Shown here: positions 22,927 to 39,701 of the stretch, piece after piece
Layout of the letters: every line of letters begins with the position of its first letter
Numbering within the stretch: position 1 is the first letter of the stretch
Virus record (IMG/VR): IMGVR_UViG_3300030106_001225
Location: 1 to 44,621 of that record
Length of the DNA stretch: 44,621 bases
Strand: one strand, 5' to 3'
Source: a virus
Program-made: the position numbers and the translations under genes
Notes under the pieces: generated by a model
Seen by the model: only the letters and a program-made list of their open reading frames with translations
The model's database searches: none
Told to the model about the DNA's origin: nothing

Positions 22927-23865
22927 ATGAGACTAAGAAGAGCAACACAATTTAAACGAGGCATTTATAGTCCAAGAACGAGAAAGCAGATGACATTGGG
23001 GGAAACTTTATCAGGTATGTTTCGTCCTGGGGAAGGGAAAACGGGTGCGCTAGGATATCTTTCTGCATTTCAGGGGTTGAGAGGAGTCAGTGCTCTTGAC
23101 GATTTACAGCAAGCTAAAATAGATTTAGCTAAAGCTGGAGTTGAAAGTCAAGAAACATTGCTTGAAGCTGCAGCTATTCAACCAGAGATTAGTAGACTAG
23201 GCTTGGATAAAGTTATTAAAGATGCTGAAGAGTCTGAAGCTGAAGATGCCAGCACGTTAGCTACACTGATAGACAGCGGGATGTCTCCAGAAGCCGCTTC
23301 TGAAGCAGTAGCTGCAGGTAGAGAGAAAAGAGATGCAGCTGTTGCATCTGCGCTATCACAGAACGATCGAATGCAAAATAGATTGAACATGCAGTCTACC
23401 ACAGCAATGCAAAATCAACTTGCAAATCTTGAGAAAGCTAAGCTAGCGCAGGAAGCTCAAGAAACTGTTGGTCAGTTAGAATCTGATATAGCTCAAAACC
23501 TTGAGTTTGGTACTCAATTCTTAAATCTGGAAAGTTTGATAAATCCTCAAGCTGGCGCTCTAAATGCACGCACAGGCACAGGGACTAGACAAAACAGAGA
23601 TGGTAGTAGAATGCGTGGGTTTAAGCATGGGGGTATTACTCCAGGCCCACATGATCATGATGTACTGAATCTTATTATATCGCATGAGGATGGAACACCA
23701 GCGCTAGATTCTGATGGTGATGAGATGCACGTTACTGGTAGCGAGGCTATCATACCAGACTACATATTTGATGAACTTATGGCGGCGGCACGAGCAGGAG
23801 ATAAAAACGCTTTGTACGAAATCTTTATGGATGAGATAGCGACAGAGCAAAGATTTCAAGGATAA
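22927..23865 (+). CDS. Putative internal virion protein
   Basis: A 312-aa protein with a basic N-terminus (MRLRRATQFKRGIYSPRTRK), a long Ala/Glu/Gln-rich helical middle (about residues 55-200) and a C-terminal segment KHGGITPGPHDHDVLNLIIS ending in HVTGSEAIIPDYIFDE. HGG-TPG with a downstream TG-EAI-P motif is frequent in the last third of phage internal or ejection proteins. It opens the ejection-protein block, with its own promoter, and overlaps the next gene as TAATG. An internal core protein ejected with DNA is the likely role, by analogy to podoviruses. Confidence 0.6.
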   Translation: MRLRRATQFKRGIYSPRTRKQMTLGETLSGMFRPGEGKTGALGYLSAFQGLRGVSALDDLQQAKIDLAKAGVESQETLLEAAAIQPEISRLGLDKVIKDAEESEAEDASTLATLIDSGMSPEAASEAVAAGREKRDAAVASALSQNDRMQNRLNMQSTTAMQNQLANLEKAKLAQEAQETVGQLESDIAQNLEFGTQFLNLESLINPQAGALNARTGTGTRQNRDGSRMRGFKHGGITPGPHDHDVLNLIISHEDGTPALDSDGDEMHVTGSEAIIPDYIFDELMAAARAGDKNALYEIFMDEIATEQRFQG

Positions 23866-26800
23866 TGGCTAACGGATATCAAGACGCTTTAAAGAGGTTT
23901 CAGACAGCCACTGCAAGAAGTATACAAGATAAAAGGCAAGCGCTGAGATTTGAAAGACAGCGTAAGGATGCCCAAGAGAGAGCGCAGATTGCTAATATAA
24001 ACACACTGTCTGGTTTTAATGCAGGAGCTTTTGCGCAAAACCCAATGTATTCTGAAGTCATGGAGGATAGAATCCAAGACACTAAGGACTACATAAATGG
24101 GGTGGGTCAATACGAAGGCGCTGAGTATAGCTCATTAGAAGCTGCAAATAAGATTAACGCACTAAATGGCTTGTATCAAAAATTCAACGGTCACTATGTT
24201 GGAGATGTTAAAGATGCTAAAAACACTAAGAAAAATAGCAGTTACACTGCGGCAGATGATAGGGTAAGAACCAACCCTTACGGAGATGGCAGTGGTGTGG
24301 CTATGTACGACAATGACTCTCCAGCATCTTATGACAATGCAGTAAACATGCATAATAATTACTTTCAGTGGAATGGTGAATACAACGCTAAAGGGGAGCC
24401 GATGGGGTTTGAGCTTGATGCTGAAGGACAACCTGTTAATCAAGAGCCAATAAGCGCTTTTGAAGCATCGACTTATGCAAACCCTGCAAACTTTAAAAAA
24501 GATACAATACAAGAACCTATACCTAAGCTCATAGATGTGGTTCAAGATACAAAAGTTCAACAAAGGTTTAATGTATTAGCATCTGCTGCTCAAGGTGATA
24601 TGGTTGAGGTTGATGGTAAGCAGGTTGCCTTTAATACTTTAGATCCAAAAGCACAGAACGATTATATTGTAGGTAAATTATTTGAACAGTACTCTGGAAA
24701 TCAAAGTGAAGATTTAGAGTTTAGAGAGTCTGTTGTCGCTACATTACAAGAGCAGGTGGGGGAGAATGGATTTAAACAACAGGATTTAGAGAGCTATGTT
24801 AAGGGTAATTATGGTGATATGGATCCAGAAGTTTTTAAGCAGATAACACAAGCAGGGGTGGCTTCGTATGCTAGTTACAACTTTGTAGAAACTCCACCTC
24901 CAGCAGTAACAGCCACTACAGTTAGAAATCTACCAACCATTTCTGTGGGTCAGGAATTAGAAGGTGGCAGGATTGCTACGGAAGATGACGTTCAAGTTGG
25001 CGGTGAGTATACGATGACATCAATAGCTGAGGAGAATCAAATAAACGTTCCGCTTACTGATAACATACCTAATGTAGAGTCAGGGTATAACATTGTAGAA
25101 TATGGTGTAGGGCCTAACGGTGAAAGACTAGCAAGGATACAGTATACTAAAGTGCTTAGAGGAGATATAGATCCTTCACTGAAGTCTGCTAATTTTGGTT
25201 CTGGAAGTCAGACTGTTGATGAGGTTCCAGGAGACATGACGGTTAACCTTGATGCAGATAATCCTTTGTCAAGAGAAGTCAATGCAAACATAAGTAACTC
25301 TCCGTTTGGTGGGGCTATACAGCAGCAAAGAGCTCAGTATCTAATTAATCAAGGTGAGGTTACATCAGCAAAAGATATACCAGCAGAGGGAGCACAAGAT
25401 GATAAGGGTACTGCTTCTTCTAATGAAGCTCTAGCTAACGCTGGGTTTACTGTTGACAACACTCCAGTTCTCGCTGAGTCAACGGATCCTATAACGAATC
25501 AATCTTTAGAACCTATCAATGAGTTAAGCAGATTTCAAACTTTAGCCATAAACTCTGTGCTGTCTGACAATAGTTTAACTGAAGGTGAGAAGAATGCTAA
25601 GGTTAGAGAGATAAGAGCTACAGCAGAAGGTTCTCAAGATTTCTTAACTACAGGAGATGATGCTGCATCTAGAATTAATGCAGAGTATGCAAATAAAAGA
25701 AGGAAAGAAGAGGGTGATACTGAGATAGTACCAATAGTTGGTGGTGGCGCTACTATGGGTGGATCAGCTCCATTTATGGGTTCTGGATTGACTGAAAAGG
25801 AAACAAGAGGAGCAGGTGAAATTTTACTTGACTTCTTTGGAATAGGATCTCCTAAAAAAACAACACAAGAGATAACGTCAAAACCTATTCAACCAACTAA
25901 ACAAGAATTAAAGGCAGAAAAAAAATCACGAGAGAGAGATCCTGAAGTTAAAAAAGAAGTTACTGACGATGCAATTAGTAGAGTTGAGGAATCGTTAGCT
26001 AATTATGAAGGGGAGTATACACTTCCTGATGGTAGTACTGAAAAATATTTATGGACTAGTCCTATAGGAAATCCAGACAATAGTAAAATACTCGGCATCT
26101 TAAATCCAGAAAGCATTAATTATCAAAACGAATTAAAGGCAGCTATTGATAAGTATGGTTTCCCTCCAGCTGATTCAGCACACCGAGCTATGGCTGAAGT
26201 ATTCTTTGGTGCGCCTAGTGCAGATCAAGAAAAAGAAATAAATAAAAGAGTTACTGAAGCTAAACCTAAAGCTGCAGGGGAAGATAAAACTGACGCTCCA
26301 AAACCCTCTGACACAGCTTTAGAACTTTTGGGTGATACCGTTAAAAATGAAGGTTACAGCCCTGAGCTTCAGATAAATGTTCCTGATTCAACTGGAAGTG
26401 GTGTAACTATAGCTGGTTTAGATATAGGATCTACCGCTGGCGATCCTTCAGGTAAGTTAGAAATACTTAAAGAGTTTTTACCTGGAGAAGACATGGCTGC
26501 ACTAGACACTCTTAAAGGGTTGACGGGTAAAGAAGCGGCAGATGCTTTAGAGGCAATTCAAAAAGATCAAGGTTTACTTACCAATGAATCTATGGGGTTA
26601 AGTCAAGAGGAGCTTAATACTATTACAGCTCTTCATATGGATGCTCTTTTACCTCCTCTTTACAGTGCTGTCGGCGGAGAAGAAGCATTTAAATCTTTAC
26701 CTATAGAAATTCAAAGAGGTATAATTGATGTTCAGTTTATGACTCCAGGTCCAGTAACATTAGAATCTTTGAAGGTTGCTATAGCTTCAGGAAAGAAAGA

Positions 26801-26957
26801 AGACTGGGAAAAAGTTTTAAATAATTACAGGAATTACTATGGCGGAGAAGAAGCTCTTGAAGCAAAAATGAAGGCTGGGGATGTTAAGTCAAGCAATGTA
26901 AAAAGAACTAATGCAACAGGAGATTTAATTGAAGAATACATCAAAACGCTAGTATAA
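23865..26957 (+). CDS. Putative internal virion protein, possible muramidase end
   Basis: A 1030-aa, mostly hydrophilic protein with helical and disordered Gln/Asp/Glu-rich stretches. It sits between two other ejection-type genes (TAATG overlap upstream, 1-nt gap downstream). The last ~150 residues contain SQEELNTITALHMDALLPPL, SLPIEIQRGIIDVQFMTPGP and SGKKEDWEKVLNNYRNYYGG. In order and spacing these loosely recall lysozyme-like domains (helix pair, a 'vq..l.d..yN' segment, then a 'gdw' segment). That would suit a virion enzyme that opens peptidoglycan during DNA entry. No catalytic Glu can be fixed by eye, so the enzymatic reading is only a possibility. Confidence 0.55.
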   Translation: MANGYQDALKRFQTATARSIQDKRQALRFERQRKDAQERAQIANINTLSGFNAGAFAQNPMYSEVMEDRIQDTKDYINGVGQYEGAEYSSLEAANKINALNGLYQKFNGHYVGDVKDAKNTKKNSSYTAADDRVRTNPYGDGSGVAMYDNDSPASYDNAVNMHNNYFQWNGEYNAKGEPMGFELDAEGQPVNQEPISAFEASTYANPANFKKDTIQEPIPKLIDVVQDTKVQQRFNVLASAAQGDMVEVDGKQVAFNTLDPKAQNDYIVGKLFEQYSGNQSEDLEFRESVVATLQEQVGENGFKQQDLESYVKGNYGDMDPEVFKQITQAGVASYASYNFVETPPPAVTATTVRNLPTISVGQELEGGRIATEDDVQVGGEYTMTSIAEENQINVPLTDNIPNVESGYNIVEYGVGPNGERLARIQYTKVLRGDIDPSLKSANFGSGSQTVDEVPGDMTVNLDADNPLSREVNANISNSPFGGAIQQQRAQYLINQGEVTSAKDIPAEGAQDDKGTASSNEALANAGFTVDNTPVLAESTDPITNQSLEPINELSRFQTLAINSVLSDNSLTEGEKNAKVREIRATAEGSQDFLTTGDDAASRINAEYANKRRKEEGDTEIVPIVGGGATMGGSAPFMGSGLTEKETRGAGEILLDFFGIGSPKKTTQEITSKPIQPTKQELKAEKKSRERDPEVKKEVTDDAISRVEESLANYEGEYTLPDGSTEKYLWTSPIGNPDNSKILGILNPESINYQNELKAAIDKYGFPPADSAHRAMAEVFFGAPSADQEKEINKRVTEAKPKAAGEDKTDAPKPSDTALELLGDTVKNEGYSPELQINVPDSTGSGVTIAGLDIGSTAGDPSGKLEILKEFLPGEDMAALDTLKGLTGKEAADALEAIQKDQGLLTNESMGLSQEELNTITALHMDALLPPLYSAVGGEEAFKSLPIEIQRGIIDVQFMTPGPVTLESLKVAIASGKKEDWEKVLNNYRNYYGGEEALEAKMKAGDVKSSNVKRTNATGDLIEEYIKTLV

Positions 26958-32900: not shown

Positions 32901-34515
32901 GAAGGTAATGGGAGATATGGTTAAGTTAGTAGGTCCTTCACTTAAGGCTATAATGAAAGAAACAAATCCAGATAGTCTTGGGAGATTGTTTGAAGAAAAC
33001 CCTTTGCTTGCTAAGTACTATCAAGAATTTAAAGATGATGGTGGTAAGACTGGATGGGGGTACGTAAAACCATTGCAAGATATAGCAGCTGAGTTAGAGA
33101 GAGAGACTGGCGGTAAGACCAAAGCTCAAGAGATACTAGGTAAGGTTAAAGAAAATACTATTGATGTTGTGGAAGGAGTCAACGAAGCTTTCGAGGATTC
33201 TATTAGGTTGTCTTCATACATCGCTGCAAGGGAAGCAGGTATAAGCAGGCAAGACGCTGCTGTCTTTGCTAAGAATATTACTGTAAACTTTAACAAGCAT
33301 GGAGAGTATGGACAGATTGCTAACTCGATCTACTTATTCTTTAATGCATCGGTTCAAGGTAGTGCTCGTGTAATTAGATCGTTAGGATTTAAAGCTCCTA
33401 ACTCTCAAACAGAACTATTAAGAAAACAAGGGTTCTTAGGTAAGGCTCAAGATTACAAAAACAGAATTAGCGCTGGTCAGAAGATGGCTGCAGGTCTTAC
33501 AATATTCTCATCTATGTTAGCTATGATTGGCAGAGGGATGTCTGATGAAGATGAGGATGGAGTTTTGTATTGGGATAAGATTCCAGACTATGTTAAAGAA
33601 AGGAACTTAATATTTATGTTCGATGGAAAGAACTATATTAAGATACCTTTACCATACGGATTTAATGTATTTGCTAATGTAGGAACGGCTGCAGTAGACA
33701 CAGCAGCAGGAGGCAAAGAAGTTGATGAGTCTATGATGTTCTTAGCCAACTCTATTATGAGTTCATTCTCGCCGATAAGTTTTGGACAATCAAAAGATCT
33801 TTTCACTTACTTAGGTAAAGCCGCTGTTCCTACAGCTCTCAAGCCTCTTGCTGAGATTATGGTGAATGAAACTTATTTTGGAGGTCCAGTGTATGCAGAG
33901 CAATCCACATTCGGTGTTGTAAAACCAGAGTCTAGTATGAGTTTTAAATCTCCTAAAGCTGTTGAGAATTTCTTTGAATTCTTAAACGATGTGACTGGAG
34001 GCAGTAAGGAGAAGTCAGGTCTAATAGATGTAAATCCAGACAAGGTTTGGCACATACTTGATTACTTTGGGGGAGGTGCTGTGCAATTTGTTAATAGGTC
34101 TTTAGAGACTACTTACAGAGTAGGTCAAAAGCTTACAGTTGATAACGATATTAGAGTGTCATTTAATGACGTGCCTCTTATGCGTAAACTATATGGAGAG
34201 CCATCAAAGTATTACGACTTTCAGAAATATAAAGATCGTGAGGAAGAAATAACTCAGTTATATAGAGAGCTTAAGGATCCAAAGATAAGAAAGAAGCAGT
34301 TCGAAAAAGATCCTGATAGATATAAGAATGTTGGTAGGTTATATGAAGCTATCAAGGTTATAAACAGAAGACTCAAGGCTATAAGAAAAGCTAAGAGGGA
34401 TGCTAAAGATATTAAAGATTACGCAGACAGAATGGTAAAAATAGAAGAACTCATGCAGTTAGAAAGAACTGAAATTATGAGATTCAATAAATTATACGAT
34501 GAAATATATAAGTGA
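26959..34515 (+). CDS. Giant polyvalent/ejection protein with LPD38-like region
   Basis: A 2518-aa protein, the largest in the window. The N-terminal half is charged and helical, with amphipathic, Gly/Ala-rich stretches near residues 450-670. At 1130-1134 the motif EEFGH, preceded by a YDASTKTIHIGPKAKSQDVM segment, resembles a zincin helix in which the first His of HExxH is Glu. Residues ~1940-2145 contain LNPEFVISNFARDIQSALF, AAVFAKNITVNFNKHGE and YLFFNASVQGSARVIRSLG, a pattern I recognise as LPD38, a large-polyvalent-protein-associated domain. A hydrophobic helix follows near 2178. Such proteins are thought to be packaged and ejected with DNA. It overlaps the holin-like gene by TGATG. Confidence 0.65.
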   Translation: MANEFDNTDPLQLNTEPVQASNITTVGMEGGPQLVQPPDSASSTAAMVEARDAGYEDDFKLFDYYRSKNYSPDDILGLMTHDGSRSKSDVLGAMNAQYEIQRREIMEDNDRMKVEQAKVEAYMMERQNALNDLLNQREDPPAQSTEVTEAVADPVAAMEFENVDDVIDAYIRPEGYDTPELARLYKENEALVGNGLNMNLSTNGLIALKNNQQEDVETALDELGYFKAERGELDVMTGENIDLLTAGKRSDIYNKYLEGDPEATKYINNFLSKKYDQAKGNAKISMGNLAGLSNELNIPWQYDADSDIHMSQAMLEAFKISDEGEQSTQAFEDNLTARRAGLQFYEDDVEAWGTFLANSKVGFRNFANQTLAVMPKQIHGLYLDQTGDDEKAKQKFKEAEVISTFLNETTRQRNLSRYNMNDEEQAKGIWDSVSEGNWELAGKKVASGFEDIFGDVILGAATLGGGAVIRKGAQEALEEGAEQYAKSKLKYYLGTQARRQNTLRMVMGGSAEAAGYTAFGLRGAGGAYQSVFDDPTRSKSEKLFLASTVGAAEIVLGRLFRAADMAISKGFTALGGVTSAGRRQAMREGIKGITKRQILQSGGKAVGGEFLEEAGIEAIDQGVRVIQDRIAGRPTSQIDWYAIMDAGTLGLIGSGPLTAMSTGSSYMAHSKFQKRRGDLAQAMSDIDQKMSMTSDPEVVAGLKARKKAYQTMLNTLEGMSEKEYSKLTDSEKRQINTLHRELALTRDEINAEKDSKRKKNLQDRYDKLYEQKAAIEKASENRKSAKPNPSFSDAEGNQTVAEPRDVSRKKAEEHDNLETQKDESDLDIDDAVQRKLDSKLASISRATERISSDPENSTKHARTVKRMTTQARNLAKSLGMTDAEVDQMIQDAISQKPKVKPDAKKQRRGERQFNNAFKALEEATTPEGKFDAIASILNNVFQGGELTTEQQDLLDKTLAELKDQGFELRFKPGDKINEGDIVDIRLNNVVEEGGDRIITRIIKPAILKDGEQIQGGKVEVQTGGKLPKSPAAKKVSSRGSVDVSTTEPIDVNEDWIGEGEGKIPLSVISQIERMKNAFGNALSKLGVNIKLHLDSESMKEATGTDSLGMYDASTKTIHIGPKAKSQDVMEEFGHAMFRTLLKSDSAFASRVYKEIAEEAGLEIGEDGLVVLPENFRESEDLKNLATRNPFARAILITEDLYPDYNPAKRREETIVEAIKQYTVSPESFSEASRKGKGRKRIDVLRDTINNALTRLGFRGNFIKGDESFFRFAEKFKMATEGRETEVASNPQDYSAEKDIVENSERTQKPIKEAKAKRKPTIVPTPDPEYRGARMPYVPILPRHFTMLYDDAFDIKVSGPKDKRGSEELDRAVNKAMRESKTYKEALDKLIAANLTKEAKPKKKRKPEVTIPGATYTTRGTRYIEALPGESAQETIARVKREDRDAEIKRKQLESDRAVQNFEDALDPTGIEPDFFESRDGSLFDQMRGREFFYTDQNGNRKSIQFNDTVHMKRWLDWMSKDPKGSRVNDLYYVEDGVKKTIDLPVDTISGDEEIVTEDMVGQNVNYGDEIASDNDVMLSNNGPIQRPPRQEETDTFESRSRSVFDVTSLVSRAATADSSVRPEGEFVQRQYTPFQLFKNLAYKRFVDKFGDILNLQEDVENFLGRRVASNQDFKSVEQLMYGKAAQDLERLEKKIEGITSKMNELGINSGEMTDYLYALHAKERNDLILEREGVENGSGLSTDDAAEILDGLTPERKAELDQVVKLVRQMQQDTRDMQVEFGLESRENMDVYENQFKNYVTLAGLAVDEADSKTTTHPTGGAGLQVKGPINRQAKGRKTRADNLLAQTIAQANATIVQARKNEALMSLHDLIKENPNSKVWSIVNKADYVDKDNVVPIRVKGEQKYLRFVDPSYAATLKNMTIPRTTFFTRLLRAPNNWLRRSFTTLNPEFVISNFARDIQSALFSAAAEADIQGGQILGKKVMGDMVKLVGPSLKAIMKETNPDSLGRLFEENPLLAKYYQEFKDDGGKTGWGYVKPLQDIAAELERETGGKTKAQEILGKVKENTIDVVEGVNEAFEDSIRLSSYIAAREAGISRQDAAVFAKNITVNFNKHGEYGQIANSIYLFFNASVQGSARVIRSLGFKAPNSQTELLRKQGFLGKAQDYKNRISAGQKMAAGLTIFSSMLAMIGRGMSDEDEDGVLYWDKIPDYVKERNLIFMFDGKNYIKIPLPYGFNVFANVGTAAVDTAAGGKEVDESMMFLANSIMSSFSPISFGQSKDLFTYLGKAAVPTALKPLAEIMVNETYFGGPVYAEQSTFGVVKPESSMSFKSPKAVENFFEFLNDVTGGSKEKSGLIDVNPDKVWHILDYFGGGAVQFVNRSLETTYRVGQKLTVDNDIRVSFNDVPLMRKLYGEPSKYYDFQKYKDREEEITQLYRELKDPKIRKKQFEKDPDRYKNVGRLYEAIKVINRRLKAIRKAKRDAKDIKDYADRMVKIEELMQLERTEIMRFNKLYDEIYK

Positions 34516-34946
34516 TGAGTAAAAAAATTAAAGACACAAAACTAGGATCTTGGCTAGCAGAAAAAGCCCCACAAGTATTAGGTGTTGTTGGAGATCTACT
34601 GCCTGATAGTGGAGGTTTAGGGATTGTAAAAAATCTTATTGATAAAGATCCAGAGGTAGATTCAGAAGAAGCTCAGCGTCAGATTGATGCAGAGGTTAGA
34701 TTCCAGGAAAACGTAACTGAACGCTGGAAAGCTGATATGGGTAGTGACGTAAAGCTGGCTAAGATGATACGTCCCGTGACTCTTATATGTCTAATGGCTA
34801 TGTTTATGATCACTATGATGATTGACAGCATGGACAATGTTGCATTTAACGTAAAGGACTCTTATGTATCTTTGCTTGAACTACTTATGCTTACTGCTTT
34901 CGGTGCTTACTTTGCAGGCAGAACTATAGAAAAGAAATCTAAATAA
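34515..34946 (+). CDS. Holin-like membrane protein
   Basis: A 143-aa protein. A soluble helical N-terminal part (about residues 1-80) precedes two predicted transmembrane segments (IRPVTLICLMAMFMITMMID and YVSLLELLMLTAFGAYFAGR) separated by a short polar loop, and a charged C-terminus. ERWKADMGSDVKLAKMIRP just before the first segment is typical of the GTA/3TM holin-like family. It would form lesions in the inner membrane at the end of infection. The ATG at 34515 overlaps the stop of the preceding gene; the in-frame GTG at 34512 is less likely. The following genes are exported or membrane proteins, so this marks the start of an envelope/lysis segment. Confidence 0.6.
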   Translation: MSKKIKDTKLGSWLAEKAPQVLGVVGDLLPDSGGLGIVKNLIDKDPEVDSEEAQRQIDAEVRFQENVTERWKADMGSDVKLAKMIRPVTLICLMAMFMITMMIDSMDNVAFNVKDSYVSLLELLMLTAFGAYFAGRTIEKKSK

Positions 34947-37450
34947 TGATTCGTAAATTATTGATTACCATACTTTTAATTGCGTTTTCTTTAACTGATA
35001 GTTTAAGTAAACCTCAGTTAGACAGTATACCACCTATAGATAGCTTACCTCCTATTGCTTGTGGGGTGCAAGGTCTGCAAGGTCAGATTGATTGTTTTCC
35101 GTTTGCCCCAAACCAAGGTCAATTGCAAGTTATGTGGACTATACCTGAGCCTGGATGTAATCCAGTTGGATTCTATAGGGGTGACGACTTAGATAATCTA
35201 CAGTTTGTGCCATATGGTCAGTGGTTTAATGGTATTTTTTATGGTGGTGTCCCGTCTTCACCCGTGTCAAATGATGAATACTATTTTATAGTAGAGTCTC
35301 CTGGTGAAGTTATGGATACACTAATTATTGAAAACCCTAACTGTGGTATTGGGTGTTTAGATTCTTTAGCGACAAACTACAATCCTTTTGCTGGCATAGA
35401 AAGTGAGTTTGGAGAGTCTTGTCAGTACGGTGAGGTATCAGAATGTGGTAATATATTTACACAAAAAGTCTATGTAAGTATAACTGCAGACACATATTCT
35501 CAGTGGGAAACGAGCTGGGAGATAGTTACTACAGATAGTATACCGATAGTATTGGCTAGTGAGGAAATAGGTTTTTACCAAACAGAAGGACTTACTGTAA
35601 CAACAGAATACTGCATACCACTTGGAGTAGAGTTTACATTTAACATATACGACACGTTTGGAGACGGACTTGCAGGATCTACAACAGGAGGGTTTACAGA
35701 TGGAGACGTTCTTGTATATACGGAATGTGGTAATACGATATACAGTATACTACCATTCGAAGGTCAGAATCCTGACTACGGATATGAAGCCATTAGTGAA
35801 CCTAATTTACTGAACCCATGCCCTCCAGAAAACCCACCATTTGGATGCTTAGATCCAGAGTACTTAGAGTTTAACTCTCTTGCTACAAACAATGATTCTA
35901 GTTTATGTGTAACTCCTGCTGTACCAGGATGTCTTAATGAAAACGCATTTAATTACGATCCAGAGGCAAATATTATGGACTACATTCCTGAGTGTGAATA
36001 CACCCTTATGTTATTTGATGGAGGTGGTGATGGCTGGGATGGCTCTTACTTAGGTGTTGTGCAGGACGGTGAGCCTATTGGTGCATTTACATGCACAGAT
36101 GAGCAAGCATTCTATGATATAACAGTAAGCTCTCAAACACATGTAGAGTTTAAGTTTTACGAAGTAGAGTTTGGTAGCTTCTTTGGAGAAGGAGGCACAA
36201 GCACAGACGTATCACAATGTGGTTTTAAACTCATAGGCCCCAACGGCAACATCGTATTTGAAAAGGGAACTAATCCTTGGTTAAATCCAATAGATCCTGA
36301 TGAAGTATATACCCCTTATTTAAGATGCGGTAACTACTGCGAACCTTTCACATACGGATGTACAGATGAAGCTGCACAGAACTATGACTCTGCTGTTAAT
36401 ACAGAGGACGGTAGTTGCTACTATCAAGCTGGCTGTGCACAAGCTGGATATTTAGAGTATTACACTCAAGGTTACGAAGCTGATTATGATGATGGTAGTT
36501 GTGAAACAGTAGCTGTCTTTGGCTGTATGGATCAAGATGCGTTTAACTACAACGAAGAAGCAAATGTTGACAACGAGGGTTGTGTGCCTGTGGTGCTAGG
36601 GTGTATGAATCCTCTAGCGTATAACTATCTACCATCTGCAAACGTAGATGATGATAGCTGTATACCTTATATATATGGGTGTATGGATCCAGGAGCTTAC
36701 AACTATAATCCTAATGCGAACATTGATGATGGAGAATGCGAGTCATTTGTTTATGGATGTACTGACAACACTATGTTTAACTATAATCCTGCTGCAAATG
36801 CCGAATACGATCCTACTAACTGTGAGCCTTACATTTATGGTTGCACTGATCCTAGCATGCTTAACTATAACGCATCCGCTAACACAGAAGATTTTAGCTG
36901 TATACCTTACATTTACGGTTGTACTGATCCTGCTGCCCTTAATTATGATGAATTGGCTAATACAGATAATGGCTCGTGTATTGAAGTATTGGTTGACTGC
37001 ATGGACCCTGATGCTTTTAATTACAATGAGTTAGCTAACACCCCTGATGAGGAAGCTTGTTTGTATGATGCAGGGTGTATCACTGGACCTGGCGAACCTT
37101 ACTGGTTAAACGATGGTTGTTATGCTTGGATCATAGACATCGATCCATACTGCTGCGAGGTTAGCTGGGATGAAACATGCGTAGATCTTTACTCGTACTG
37201 TGAGCAAGGTTGGCCGCAAGGTGTATACGATATAGACGATGTATATAATGTATACCCAAATCCAACAAGCGGATTGTTATATATACAAGCCCCATCAACA
37301 GCGGTGATATCTTTGTATAACTATTTAGGTCAATCTGTTATACAGACTTCTAATAAAACTATAGATCTCTCACATCTTTCTAACGGTGTGTACGAAGTAG
37401 TAATACAATACAACTCTAGAATTATAAAAAAGAAAATTATTAAGTCATGA
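34946..37450 (+). CDS. T9SS-exported repeat protein
   Basis: An 834-aa secreted protein. Residues 1 to about 22 are a Sec signal peptide (MIRKLLITILLIAFSLTDSL). Two 'GDG' beta modules are visible: IYDTFGDGLAGSTTGG near 234 and LMLFDGGGDGWDGSYLG near 354. About 12 Cys-bounded GCxDPxxxNYNxxAN repeats lie at 135-159, 300-350 and in a near-regular 26-residue array from 471 to 705. Residues 766-834 form a type A T9SS sorting domain (VYPNPTSGLLYIQ, VISLYNYLGQSVI, LSNGVYEVVIQY, basic end), which in Bacteroidetes directs transport across the outer membrane. The ATG overlaps the holin stop. It is absent from typical phage gene sets; the target of binding is unknown. Export by the host T9SS is inferred from the domain. 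Confidence 0.85.
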   Translation: MIRKLLITILLIAFSLTDSLSKPQLDSIPPIDSLPPIACGVQGLQGQIDCFPFAPNQGQLQVMWTIPEPGCNPVGFYRGDDLDNLQFVPYGQWFNGIFYGGVPSSPVSNDEYYFIVESPGEVMDTLIIENPNCGIGCLDSLATNYNPFAGIESEFGESCQYGEVSECGNIFTQKVYVSITADTYSQWETSWEIVTTDSIPIVLASEEIGFYQTEGLTVTTEYCIPLGVEFTFNIYDTFGDGLAGSTTGGFTDGDVLVYTECGNTIYSILPFEGQNPDYGYEAISEPNLLNPCPPENPPFGCLDPEYLEFNSLATNNDSSLCVTPAVPGCLNENAFNYDPEANIMDYIPECEYTLMLFDGGGDGWDGSYLGVVQDGEPIGAFTCTDEQAFYDITVSSQTHVEFKFYEVEFGSFFGEGGTSTDVSQCGFKLIGPNGNIVFEKGTNPWLNPIDPDEVYTPYLRCGNYCEPFTYGCTDEAAQNYDSAVNTEDGSCYYQAGCAQAGYLEYYTQGYEADYDDGSCETVAVFGCMDQDAFNYNEEANVDNEGCVPVVLGCMNPLAYNYLPSANVDDDSCIPYIYGCMDPGAYNYNPNANIDDGECESFVYGCTDNTMFNYNPAANAEYDPTNCEPYIYGCTDPSMLNYNASANTEDFSCIPYIYGCTDPAALNYDELANTDNGSCIEVLVDCMDPDAFNYNELANTPDEEACLYDAGCITGPGEPYWLNDGCYAWIIDIDPYCCEVSWDETCVDLYSYCEQGWPQGVYDIDDVYNVYPNPTSGLLYIQAPSTAVISLYNYLGQSVIQTSNKTIDLSHLSNGVYEVVIQYNSRIIKKKIIKS
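36356..37060 (+). repeat. Array of GC[MT]DPxAxNYN repeats, ~26-residue period
   Basis: Repeat starts (protein residues) are 471, 496, 526, 552, 578, 604, 632, 658 and 684, so the spacing is about 26 residues from 526 on. Each begins G-C (D-C at 684), most have x-[DN]-x-x-x-x-[NE]-Y-N, then an Asp/Asn-rich stretch, and all end in Cys. Linkers such as IPYIYGC recur at 573, 627 and 653. DNA copies are diverged, so this is an old protein-level array. Confidence 0.85.
37241..37447 (+). other. T9SS type A C-terminal sorting domain coding segment
   Basis: Residues 766-834 of the repeat protein. The ordered motifs YPNPTSG, Y-L-G-Q, LSNGVYEV and a C-terminal KKKIIKS match the Por secretion C-terminal domain pattern. 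In host proteins this domain is removed after passage through the outer membrane. Confidence 0.85.
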
Positions 37451-37635
37451 AAGTAAATTGGATTAACAGTTGGAATGCTGGTAATAAGAAAGAAAAGTAC
37501 GAGTTAAATTTTAGAATAGGTACAGTAAGCGTACTTGAGATTTCATTCTGTCCATGCCCAGCATGCGATAAGAAAAAGAAAAATGCATGTCCAAGATTTA
37601 GATTTATGATCTTGAACTTTGGTTTTGAAGTGTGA
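37447..37635 (+). CDS. Small Cys-cluster protein
   Basis: A 62-aa protein with an N-terminal Trp/Asn-containing segment and a clustered Cys motif, CPCPACDKKKKNACPRF (C-x-C-x2-C-x6-C), followed by a hydrophobic/aromatic tail (MILNFGFEV). The four Cys could bind zinc, although the host periplasm could also oxidise them; no signal peptide is visible, so it is likely cytoplasmic. Its ATG overlaps the stop of the T9SS protein (ATGA) and its stop overlaps the next start. That links it translationally to exported neighbours. No family is recognised. Confidence 0.65.
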   Translation: MKVNWINSWNAGNKKEKYELNFRIGTVSVLEISFCPCPACDKKKKNACPRFRFMILNFGFEV

Positions 37636-38723
37636 TGACAGGAGGTGAGGCTAAAAATAAACCCTTAGATTTTACTGCAGTTCTATACGCTGCTATAATG
37701 CTTTTAGTATTTTTATTAGCATCATGTACTGCTAGTGCACAAACGTTAAAGAAGGCGTTTAAGTTCGCTACATTCTATACTGCCTTTAGTGGTGGTAACT
37801 CTGTTGCTGATGATAACATATACTCTGTTACAAATGGATTACAAACAAATGTGATTGAAACTCCTTTTGATTACTCGATCACAGCTGGTGTCCGCAAGAT
37901 AGCTAGGTTTGGATACGAGAATAGAGCTAATGTATTTTATGATGGAACTGAAAAGTCTTACAGTGATGCAGCAAACATAGGTAAGGTTAAGGGTTTTGAA
38001 TTTTTATTTGAAGCTGACTGGCGTAGACAGCAGGGTAGAAACTTTCTCGATCAAGATTACTTCTTGCGATATGTAGCAAAGAACTGGATAGCTAAAGCTG
38101 AGTATCTTCAAGATGGCTTTGCTGATGTAGAATACTTTGAAGGATCAGAAAGATTTAGATTAAACATTAATAATCGTCTTAGCTTTAATATTGGGATGGC
38201 TCAACGTATATCAGAGCCGTATGGTTATAACCCATTAGAGCAATGGGTACTGCCTAATAATGACATACACTATACCAACCTTGCTTTACAAGAAGGATAC
38301 ACCGTGGATGTTCAGGCTGGAGAGTACTTCGATCCAGACGGCACGCTTGTGGCGAACAGTGTAGATGTATGGGAGCAAGTAATTATACCTCAGGTTATAA
38401 ATGATTATGTGGCTAGGAAAAGAAGTGAGCTACCTAGCGTATGGAACTACTCTTTAGTTCTTGGGTACGATTACTACAAATACTCTAAAGAGTTCTGGGT
38501 GCATAGCTGGGCTAGTGTCATGCCTTACCACCTTAAGACTAATGATGAGTATTCTTACTTTGAAACCACAGAAGGGAGGCAGTGGATAGATTACGGTGCA
38601 GGCCTTATCTTTGGGTGGAGATTAAATAAAAGTCTTGGTGTATTCTTAGAGGGTAAATACAATAAGTATTGGAACCGTGAATGGCATGACTTTTCTGTCG
38701 GACTAAACTATGTAATACTGTAA
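37635..38723 (+). CDS. Putative outer-membrane beta-barrel protein
   Basis: A 362-aa protein. Residues ~12-36 form a signal peptide (LYAAIMLLVFLLASCTASAQ), cleavable after ASA; LLASC also fits a lipoprotein box. The rest alternates polar and hydrophobic/aromatic residues in long strands (FDYSITAGVRKIARFGYENR, SFNIGMAQRI, GAGLIFGWRLNKSLGVFLEG) and ends in a beta strand HDFSVGLNYVIL. This layout suggests a barrel inserted by the host Bam machinery. It is not like PorP/SprF. The ATG at 37635 overlaps the previous stop; the in-frame GTG at 37632 is unlikely. The neighbours suggest an altered host envelope. Barrel topology is inferred from pattern only. Confidence 0.6.
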   Translation: MTGGEAKNKPLDFTAVLYAAIMLLVFLLASCTASAQTLKKAFKFATFYTAFSGGNSVADDNIYSVTNGLQTNVIETPFDYSITAGVRKIARFGYENRANVFYDGTEKSYSDAANIGKVKGFEFLFEADWRRQQGRNFLDQDYFLRYVAKNWIAKAEYLQDGFADVEYFEGSERFRLNINNRLSFNIGMAQRISEPYGYNPLEQWVLPNNDIHYTNLALQEGYTVDVQAGEYFDPDGTLVANSVDVWEQVIIPQVINDYVARKRSELPSVWNYSLVLGYDYYKYSKEFWVHSWASVMPYHLKTNDEYSYFETTEGRQWIDYGAGLIFGWRLNKSLGVFLEGKYNKYWNREWHDFSVGLNYVIL

Positions 38724-39007
38724 TGGCAAAAGAAATTGGAGAAGATACTAAAGTAACACTAGACCTAAAAACAATAGGTATGGGTGCAGCAGGGCTAGCA
38801 GCTCTTATAGGAATGTGGTTTGCTCTTCAAGCAGACATAGCTTTAGCTAAAGAATTACCTGAACCTGCAGATCCAGAGATAACACGTATGGAATTTGATA
38901 TGAAAGATCAATTGGTGCGTCAAACTATTATGAGCACACAAGAGGATGTTAAAGAACTTAAGGGTGATCTTGATAGAATTGAAGAAAAAATAGATAAACT
39001 TCAGTAA
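38723..39007 (+). CDS. Spanin-like membrane coiled-coil protein
   Basis: A 94-aa protein with a short acidic N-terminus, a single hydrophobic helix (about residues 18-36, MGAAGLAALIGMWFALQAD), a Pro-containing linker and a charged coiled-coil end (DVKELKGDLDRIEEKIDKLQ). One membrane helix plus periplasmic-type coiled coil is the plan of inner-membrane spanins, which help fuse membranes at lysis. It could equally be a small holin accessory. Both ends overlap neighbours by TAATG, placing it in the lysis/envelope chain. Confidence 0.5.
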   Translation: MAKEIGEDTKVTLDLKTIGMGAAGLAALIGMWFALQADIALAKELPEPADPEITRMEFDMKDQLVRQTIMSTQEDVKELKGDLDRIEEKIDKLQ

Positions 39008-39342
39008 TGAGATTACTTTACATATGCTTACTTGCTATGATGTCTTTAGGAATGAAGATCCCAGACTCAGGTATTTGCGTAGTTGAATTTAATGCTACCT
39101 TTAACGCCCCTAATAGCGTGGCATGGATAGAAAAATTAAACGACTGCAAAACATCCCGTGTAGACATTGTGTCTGCTCCAGAGATGCAAAAGGAACATCA
39201 GATAATTGTCGTTCCAACAATCGTTGTATTCAACAACGGGGAAGAAGTAAAAAGATTTCAGGCCAATATAATGATGCAGATGGAGGCGACAAAAGATGAT
39301 GTTCAAGAGGCAGTGGATGAAATCATAATGAGTGATTTCTAA
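39007..39342 (+). CDS. Exported thioredoxin-like protein lacking CxxC
   Basis: A 111-aa protein with a short hydrophobic signal peptide (MRLLYICLLAMMSLGMKIPD) and a thioredoxin-like order of elements: CVVEFNATFNAPNSVAWIEK, then VDIVSAP, then QIIVVPTIVVFNNGEEVKRF with a cis-Pro-type VPT. The usual CxxC after the first strand is missing (ATFNAPNS instead), so it probably does not carry out dithiol exchange and may instead act as a binding or chaperone module in the periplasm. This protein type is common in phages with similar late cassettes. It overlaps both neighbours by TAATG. Confidence 0.6.
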   Translation: MRLLYICLLAMMSLGMKIPDSGICVVEFNATFNAPNSVAWIEKLNDCKTSRVDIVSAPEMQKEHQIIVVPTIVVFNNGEEVKRFQANIMMQMEATKDDVQEAVDEIIMSDF

Positions 39343-39701
39343 TGTACACTTATAACATAGAAGTATTAAGAGTTATTGATGGGGACACCATTGATGCTAA
39401 TATAGATCTAGGCTTTGATGTAAAAATAAAAAAGCGTGTGAGATTTATGGGGATCAACACTCCTGAATCTAGAACTAGAGATCTCGAAGAAAAGAAAAGA
39501 GGGTTAGCTGCAAAGCAAAGAGTAGCTGAGCTGTTAGATACAGCTACAGAAGTTCAGCTTATATCGCATGGCGTAGGTAAGTTCGGTAGATGTTTGGGGG
39601 AGATAGACTTCTGCTGTCCTGACTCCCTTACGATGAAGAACCTAAACAACACCCTAATAGAAGAAGGTCATGCCGTAGAATATCACGGCGGTAAAAGATA
39701 G
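39342..39701 (+). CDS. SNase-family nuclease
   Basis: A 119-aa staphylococcal-nuclease-type protein. Motifs in order: VIDGDTIDA (Asp13, Asp15), RVRFMGINTPES (Arg34, Thr40, Glu42) and GKFGRCLGEID (Arg83), corresponding to the Ca-binding Asp, catalytic Arg35/Glu43 and Arg87 of the family. The Asp of the usual D-T-P-E is Asn39 here, as in several phage homologues. No signal peptide is visible, so it acts inside the cell unless released at lysis. Possible jobs are host DNA breakdown or late DNA processing. It ends the plus-strand block, next to the convergent genes. Confidence 0.8.
   Translation: MYTYNIEVLRVIDGDTIDANIDLGFDVKIKKRVRFMGINTPESRTRDLEEKKRGLAAKQRVAELLDTATEVQLISHGVGKFGRCLGEIDFCCPDSLTMKNLNNTLIEEGHAVEYHGGKR

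Follow-up and report, generated by a model that had tools for sequence, protein, structure and literature searches.

The window analysed here, from a marine bacterial virus, comprises 44,621 nucleotides of the IMG/VR virus record IMGVR_UViG_3300030106_001225 (46,326 bases in full), and we conclude with high confidence that its ORF at 34946-37450 is a true T9SS cargo. With the same high confidence we assign this gene to a conserved envelope module, whose core, an outer-membrane beta-barrel candidate (OMP), a transmembrane protein with a coiled-coil-like tail (TMcc) and a thioredoxin-like protein, forms a phage module. Service of this module in lysis or egress stands, in our judgement, at about an even chance. 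The features on which these statements rest are collected in Table 1.

Table 1. Features of the cargo gene and of its neighbours in the window
Feature	Coordinates	Strand	Basis
Holin, 144 aa, directly upstream of cargo	34512..34946	+	phrog_3427 E=9.4e-23; weak PF11351 GTA holin
T9SS cargo protein, 834 aa	34946..37450	+	PF18962, TIGR04183, AlphaFold2 model, fold match, family profile
Signal-peptide-like N-terminus, cargo residues about 1-22	34946..35011	+	Sequence; hydrophobicity rule over relatives
First GDG motif, residues 239-241, invariant across cargo family	35660..35668	+	Alignment A4
Second GDG motif, residues 361-363	36026..36034	+	Sequence and alignment A4
Tandem GCxDxxAxNYNxxANxDxxxC repeats, residues about 465-711	36338..37078	+	Sequence, alignment
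Conserved Cys/Trp domain before tail, CYAWxIDxDPYCCExxWDxxCVxLYxYC, residues 716-753	37091..37204	+	Alignment A4
T9SS type A C-terminal sorting domain, residues 769-833	37250..37444	+	PF18962, TIGR04183, 8glk_D fold match
62-aa Cys-rich protein between cargo and barrel	37447..37635	+	Gene clusters; kept in part of family
Predicted outer-membrane beta-barrel (OMP), 362-363 aa, signal-peptide-like start	37632..38723	+	AlphaFold2, Foldseek
TMcc, 94 aa, N-terminal transmembrane segment then coiled-coil-like tail	38723..39007	+	Sequence, alignment A3
Thioredoxin-fold protein, 111 aa, signal-like start, without CxxC	39007..39342	+	Profile hits to solved thioredoxins, best 2e-8
SNase-type nuclease, closing the overlapping run	39342..39701	+	PF00565 E=9e-9, phrog_452 E=2e-36

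A preliminary description of this gene had read in it an 834-aa protein with two GDG modules, a Cys-repeat array and an end carrying YPNP, LSNGVYEV and a basic terminus. Re-reading of the sequence gave the same coordinates, length and motifs, the basic terminus being KKKIIKS. The description had also assigned the end to the T9SS type A domains, and the C-terminus, when run against the family models, indeed scores above the curated cut-offs of both PF18962 (E=5.7e-11; 43 bits, cut-off 27) and TIGR04183 (42.1 bits, cut-off 23); the outcome named there as refuting, a sequence without a score to the T9SS model, did not occur. Comparison of a cargo-family profile with solved T9SS sorting domains led to 8glk_D (5e-6) and 8glj_D (3e-5) and, weakly, to the gingipains. 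The AlphaFold2 model of the whole cargo is poor (pTM 0.26) and no reading is drawn from it outside the sorting domain, which is modelled as seven strands with a pLDDT of about 80-85. The best PDB match of the modelled domain is again 8glk_D, with a TM-score of 0.76 and 28% identity over an alignment that spans 74 columns on a 75-residue chain; 8glk is NucA, a T9SS substrate domain solved bound to the translocon. At the other end of the protein, a Sec signal peptide was called by a simple rule on hydrophobicity and charge, by which 91 of 95 distinct cargo relatives have a signal-like start, compared with 69 of 1124 control ORFs.

These results bear on a reading in which the protein is part of the virion, a decoration of tail or capsid whose C-terminal end merely resembles a sorting domain. 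The gene does lie within a structural gene run, and its repeats give short matches to a cyanophage protein annotated as virion structural. However, the tail scores over both curated T9SS thresholds and finds its best structural match in a substrate domain solved together with the translocon, and signal-like starts, unexpected for virion parts assembled in the cytoplasm, are found on the cargo, the OMP and the thioredoxin-like protein alike. We consider a virion part very improbable.

A protein search of IMG/VR with the cargo yielded 63 loci that were fetched, nearly all of them full relatives with both a signal-like start and a sorting domain, and PF18962 matches 41 of the 44 relatives that were aligned. 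The cargos of contigs L024, L025 and L051 (the last outside the 44-member alignment) end, in place of the type A domain, in a different conserved tail (ITDLLGRP...IYxDGSxxxKxI) without a counterpart among the NCBIfam models; it is located at L024:8380-8514 and is possibly another sorting signal. The median dN/dS is 0.06 for the cargo body and 0.26 for the sorting domain (107 non-independent pairs), that is, both are under purifying selection. Between the window and L005, the cargo body has a dN of 0.035 and the tail a dN of 0.345, and more generally near-identical bodies bear very different tails, every one of them a T9SS tail; the sorting domain is thus exchanged and yet retained. Taken with the family models, the fold match to a translocon substrate and the conservation in many phages, this selection bears out the earlier proposal of a phage protein built for export by the host T9SS.

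Among isolated phages in GenBank we found no encoder of the cargo, only short repeat matches and weak tail matches. The Cys-repeats are common to long host-type proteins of related bacteria and, since relatives of the repeat region sit in many Flavobacteriales-type genomes, the cargo body probably derives from a host gene. The same relationship could favour a useless passenger gene taken from a host, or a chimeric contig. Against both, dozens of viral contigs keep the cargo in the same module with a dN/dS of 0.06, and its OMP partner is absent from 394 of the 396 bacterial genomes searched; the chance of either is practically negligible, and a chimera is rejected on the many independent contigs that carry the cargo in the module, short of a very unusual assembly artefact common to many studies. 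On L095, L101 and L108 there is a tandem pair of T9SS cargo genes. The second of the pair (411-521 aa) differs from the first in body and tail, and the barrel gene follows it directly.

In the window, the + strand genes from 34512 to 39701 all overlap by one to four bases, in the order holin, cargo, 62-aa protein, OMP, TMcc, thioredoxin-like protein and SNase-type nuclease. The 62-aa Cys-rich protein (CPCPAC...CPRFRFMILNFGFE) has no family match; about 34 loci retain it, always in the interval from cargo to barrel. The AlphaFold2 model of the OMP consists of antiparallel strands and is of only fair quality (pTM 0.67, pLDDT 73.5). Foldseek found 73 significant PDB hits for it, the 50 best of which are outer-membrane proteins, almost all beta-barrels, with low TM-scores against the known barrels (0.2-0.56). 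None of the 42 OMPs searched matched a Pfam family, and we regard the protein as a predicted outer-membrane beta-barrel. The thioredoxin-like protein is not an ordinary redox thioredoxin, as a C..C motif is present in only three of 173 distinct sequences, one of which (L159) is a separate true thioredoxin. The SNase-type nuclease is probably a neighbour and not a member of the module.

The OMP, TMcc and thioredoxin-like genes co-occur across loci, and the genes of the module recur jointly while their order and their position in the genome vary. A tail-bearing cargo lies one to six genes from the OMP in 133 of 135 OMP loci (some contigs counted twice), and in the remaining two the cargo body is there but ends in the other tail; in all, 105 distinct OMP sequences are accompanied by a cargo. 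A search of IMG/VR with the OMP gave at least 585 matches, of which the best 80 were read. A second clade of OMPs, found from L158, has barrel, TMcc and thioredoxin-like protein and no cargo, and 27 of its virus records are without any T9SS tail. Since clade 2 does without it, the cargo is not essential to the job of the trio. On the OMP tree, the presence of cargo maps as a single change (0 of 500 shuffles), on a tree whose root is uncertain and whose sampling came via two queries and the best 80 of at least 585 matches. Correlation of distances gave a modest signal of co-inheritance, strongest between the OMP and the thioredoxin-like protein (0.79), followed by OMP and TMcc (0.71) and OMP and cargo (0.60); for OMP and portal the value was 0.49, on a smaller subset. 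No match to the OMP or TMcc was found in isolated phages. The OMP occurs in three loci of the genome collection and in two of 396 genomes of one bacterial order, both times on phage-like contigs, and on these counts we rejected a prophage or host gene and a lysogenic conversion gene. The preliminary description is well supported on export, offered guesses as to purpose (superinfection block, receptor decoy, holding of debris, aggregation) and missed the conserved envelope module around the gene. This module, coupled to the holin in the window and to holin or endolysin genes in other phages, points first to lysis or egress.

More distant arrangements were seen on a few contigs. The jumbo-phage contigs L241 (297 kb) and L242 (232 kb) carry a cargo, a lipoprotein of 198-200 aa, a TMcc-like membrane coiled coil of 125-128 aa and a distant barrel; next comes a protein of 801 aa resembling TonB-dependent receptors. 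A further protein of L241, 432 aa long, combines a thioredoxin (CGPC) with a GDG module and ends much like a sorting signal. On the minus strand of L127, near the module, there is a 584-aa secreted protein that resembles a metalloprotease and has a dockerin-like end.

Genes of lysis type, belonging to six families, cluster beside the module: their share of the + strand genes is 22% in the adjacent position, 9% two genes away, 5% three genes away and mostly 0-6% beyond. The holin of the window overlaps the cargo gene, its stop and the cargo start having one base in common. On L159, a T4-like phage contig assigned by binning to a Flavobacteriales MAG, a holin-like gene is followed by those for cargo, OMP, TMcc, thioredoxin-like protein and a PG-binding amidase. 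In clade 2, an M15 endolysin lies within ten genes of the module in 68 of 80 loci and some lysis-type gene in 71 of 80. In many clade-1 phages, the module is remote from lysis genes and is flanked by those for portal and capsid; besides, late genes of other function commonly have lysis genes as neighbours too.

The layout of TMcc, with an N-terminal anchor and a coiled coil, resembles by sequence that of an i-spanin, although the model for Rz-type i-spanins (PF03245) does not match it and gave no hit in 26 records. As for an o-spanin, the window contains no lipoprotein-like ORF besides the start of the OMP itself and a 45-aa antisense frame, in a record that may be incomplete. A small lipoprotein is present near the module in about 34 of 80 clade-2 loci, in some adjoining the endolysin and in some between OMP and TMcc. 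A simple substitution, in which the OMP replaces the o-spanin in phages without lipoproteins, is weakened by these counts, being true in the window while other genomes have lipoproteins; with a lipoprotein near the module in 34 of 80 clade-2 loci, the OMP may work beside a spanin and not in its place. If the clade-2 lipoprotein is an ordinary o-spanin, then the OMP and the thioredoxin-like protein would have no needed role in lysis. At L321:6438, L331:8786 and other clade-2 loci, a small lipoprotein rich in Pro and Asn (MTDxQRDxGR...SGCSPYYY) is encoded close behind the M15 endolysin and is a candidate o-spanin.

Our best overall reading, which we hold to be evenly balanced between right and wrong, is that of a late trans-envelope module, with a surface part sent out through the host T9SS, that acts at the outer membrane in lysis or egress. 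The module would be produced late in infection. Sec would export the cargo, the OMP and the thioredoxin-fold protein from the cytoplasm, as their signal-like starts suggest, and the host T9SS, recognising the C-terminal domain, would place the cargo on the cell surface. From the sequences and models, TMcc would sit in the inner membrane with its coiled coil in the periplasm, the thioredoxin-fold protein would be periplasmic and the OMP would insert in the outer membrane, so that the set would span from the inner membrane to the cell surface. There it would breach the outer membrane, or prepare it, at lysis or virion egress. The cargo would be a surface add-on in one OMP clade, probably working with the OMP that always accompanies it. 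We favour lysis or egress because phages of unrelated type repeatedly have the module in the company of holin and endolysin genes, and because the set reaches from the inner membrane to the cell surface. A more specific version, in which these parts form a new machine for breaching the outer membrane or for egress, made of a coiled coil, a redox-dead thioredoxin fold, a barrel that stands in for the lipoprotein o-spanin and, within one large clade, a surface protein sent out by the host T9SS, is possible, and we put it forward tentatively.

The main and serious rival is that the cargo and the OMP shield the surface of the infected cell, blocking superinfection or masking the receptor of the phage and thereby sparing the progeny from sticking to debris; on this view, that the genes are expressed late and lie beside lysis genes would reflect timing only. 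A T9SS cargo ends outside the outer membrane, where receptors are, and is here always paired with an outer-membrane barrel. The cargo bodies and tails vary and recombine between phages, some of which have tandem cargo genes, all of which would suit a shield. A simple shield, however, would not need a core of OMP, coiled coil and thioredoxin fold that spans the whole envelope and that in clade 2 persists next to an endolysin, without the cargo; we consider this rival rather unlikely. Improbable, in our estimate, is that the Cys-repeat array acts as a glue that sticks released material or neighbouring cells together on particles and so aids host finding. Arrays of this kind are seen in long proteins that presumably serve adhesion in related marine bacteria, and a cyanophage protein annotated as virion structural gives a weak repeat match, but such a glue leaves the coiled-coil and thioredoxin-fold partners and the lysis-gene neighbours unexplained.

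The phage identity of the record is given by PHROGs matches to terminase, portal, capsid-type and primase/helicase proteins. A Bacteroidota host is likely for the window phage, whose portal shares about 28% identity with the portals of Flavobacterium and Cellulophaga phages. The MAGs that hold related phage contigs have 42, 15 and 49 matches to type A tails, in bins that are possibly wrong. One contig of the same phage family (L143, CALBOT010000064.1) was binned in a MAG of the archaeon Candidatus Nitrosopelagicus, where it is almost certainly misplaced. We recognised no stand-alone endolysin in the window; towards the C-terminus of a 1030-aa protein at 23865-26957 there is a match, too weak for the cut-off, to a pesticin-like lysozyme domain (PF16754, E=9e-5).

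How Bacteroidota phages breach the outer membrane is poorly known. A spanin was undetectable in 13% of 677 surveyed phages (PMC6139136), and Bacteroidetes phages have been reported with unimolecular spanins only (PMC12596118). If the lysis or egress reading is right, it names a widespread candidate set of proteins for the outer-membrane breach, and it means that phages borrow a host secretion machine and alter the cell surface during infection. Our results suggest that these viruses rebuild the outer surface of the host late in infection and, because the module is common among marine viral contigs, it may affect the bursting of a large group of ocean bacteria and the content of the debris.

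That phage proteins can carry T9SS tags is already known from one earlier mention, in gut BACON-domain phages, where proteins with such a domain are encoded near the head genes and one BACON protein is so tailed (PMC6949934, 2019). These resemble the window cargo, by description, as phage proteins with a T9SS sorting domain; the mention there is in passing and comes with no module, selection test or link to lysis. Our search of the open-access literature (subscription papers and other preprints lay outside its scope) turned up no account of the module or of its connection with lysis genes. The strict pairing of barrel gene and cargo gene recalls the PorP/SprF-type barrels found beside T9SS type B cargo, but the tail of the phage cargo is type A, and we rejected a PorP/SprF identity for the OMP on the lack of a match in Pfam (42 OMPs) and NCBIfam (three OMPs). 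Phages are known to encode outer-membrane barrels, such as lambda Lom, a late gene product. Lom and the barrels of marine phages are, like the OMP, products of late phage genes, although we found none described in a multi-part envelope module with a T9SS cargo.

With the spanins, both the two-component Rz/Rz1 type and the unimolecular type (PMC6139136), the module has in common the apparent i-spanin layout of TMcc and its frequent company of holin and endolysin. It differs in that the outer-membrane member is a predicted beta-barrel, in the added thioredoxin-fold and T9SS surface members and in the absence of any hit to the Rz model; Kongari and colleagues have proposed that an outer-membrane protein could act as o-spanin (PMC6139136). 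Finally, the cargo resembles the bacterial T9SS type A cargos (Por_Secre_tail, PF18962/TIGR04183) in its signal-like start, its type A domain at the extreme C-terminus and its repeat-rich extracellular body, whose repeats it shares with bacterial proteins of Flavobacteriales-type genomes. Unlike them, it belongs to a phage, whose late gene run also supplies a dedicated outer-membrane barrel, and it would arrive on the surface of a host cell that is dying.
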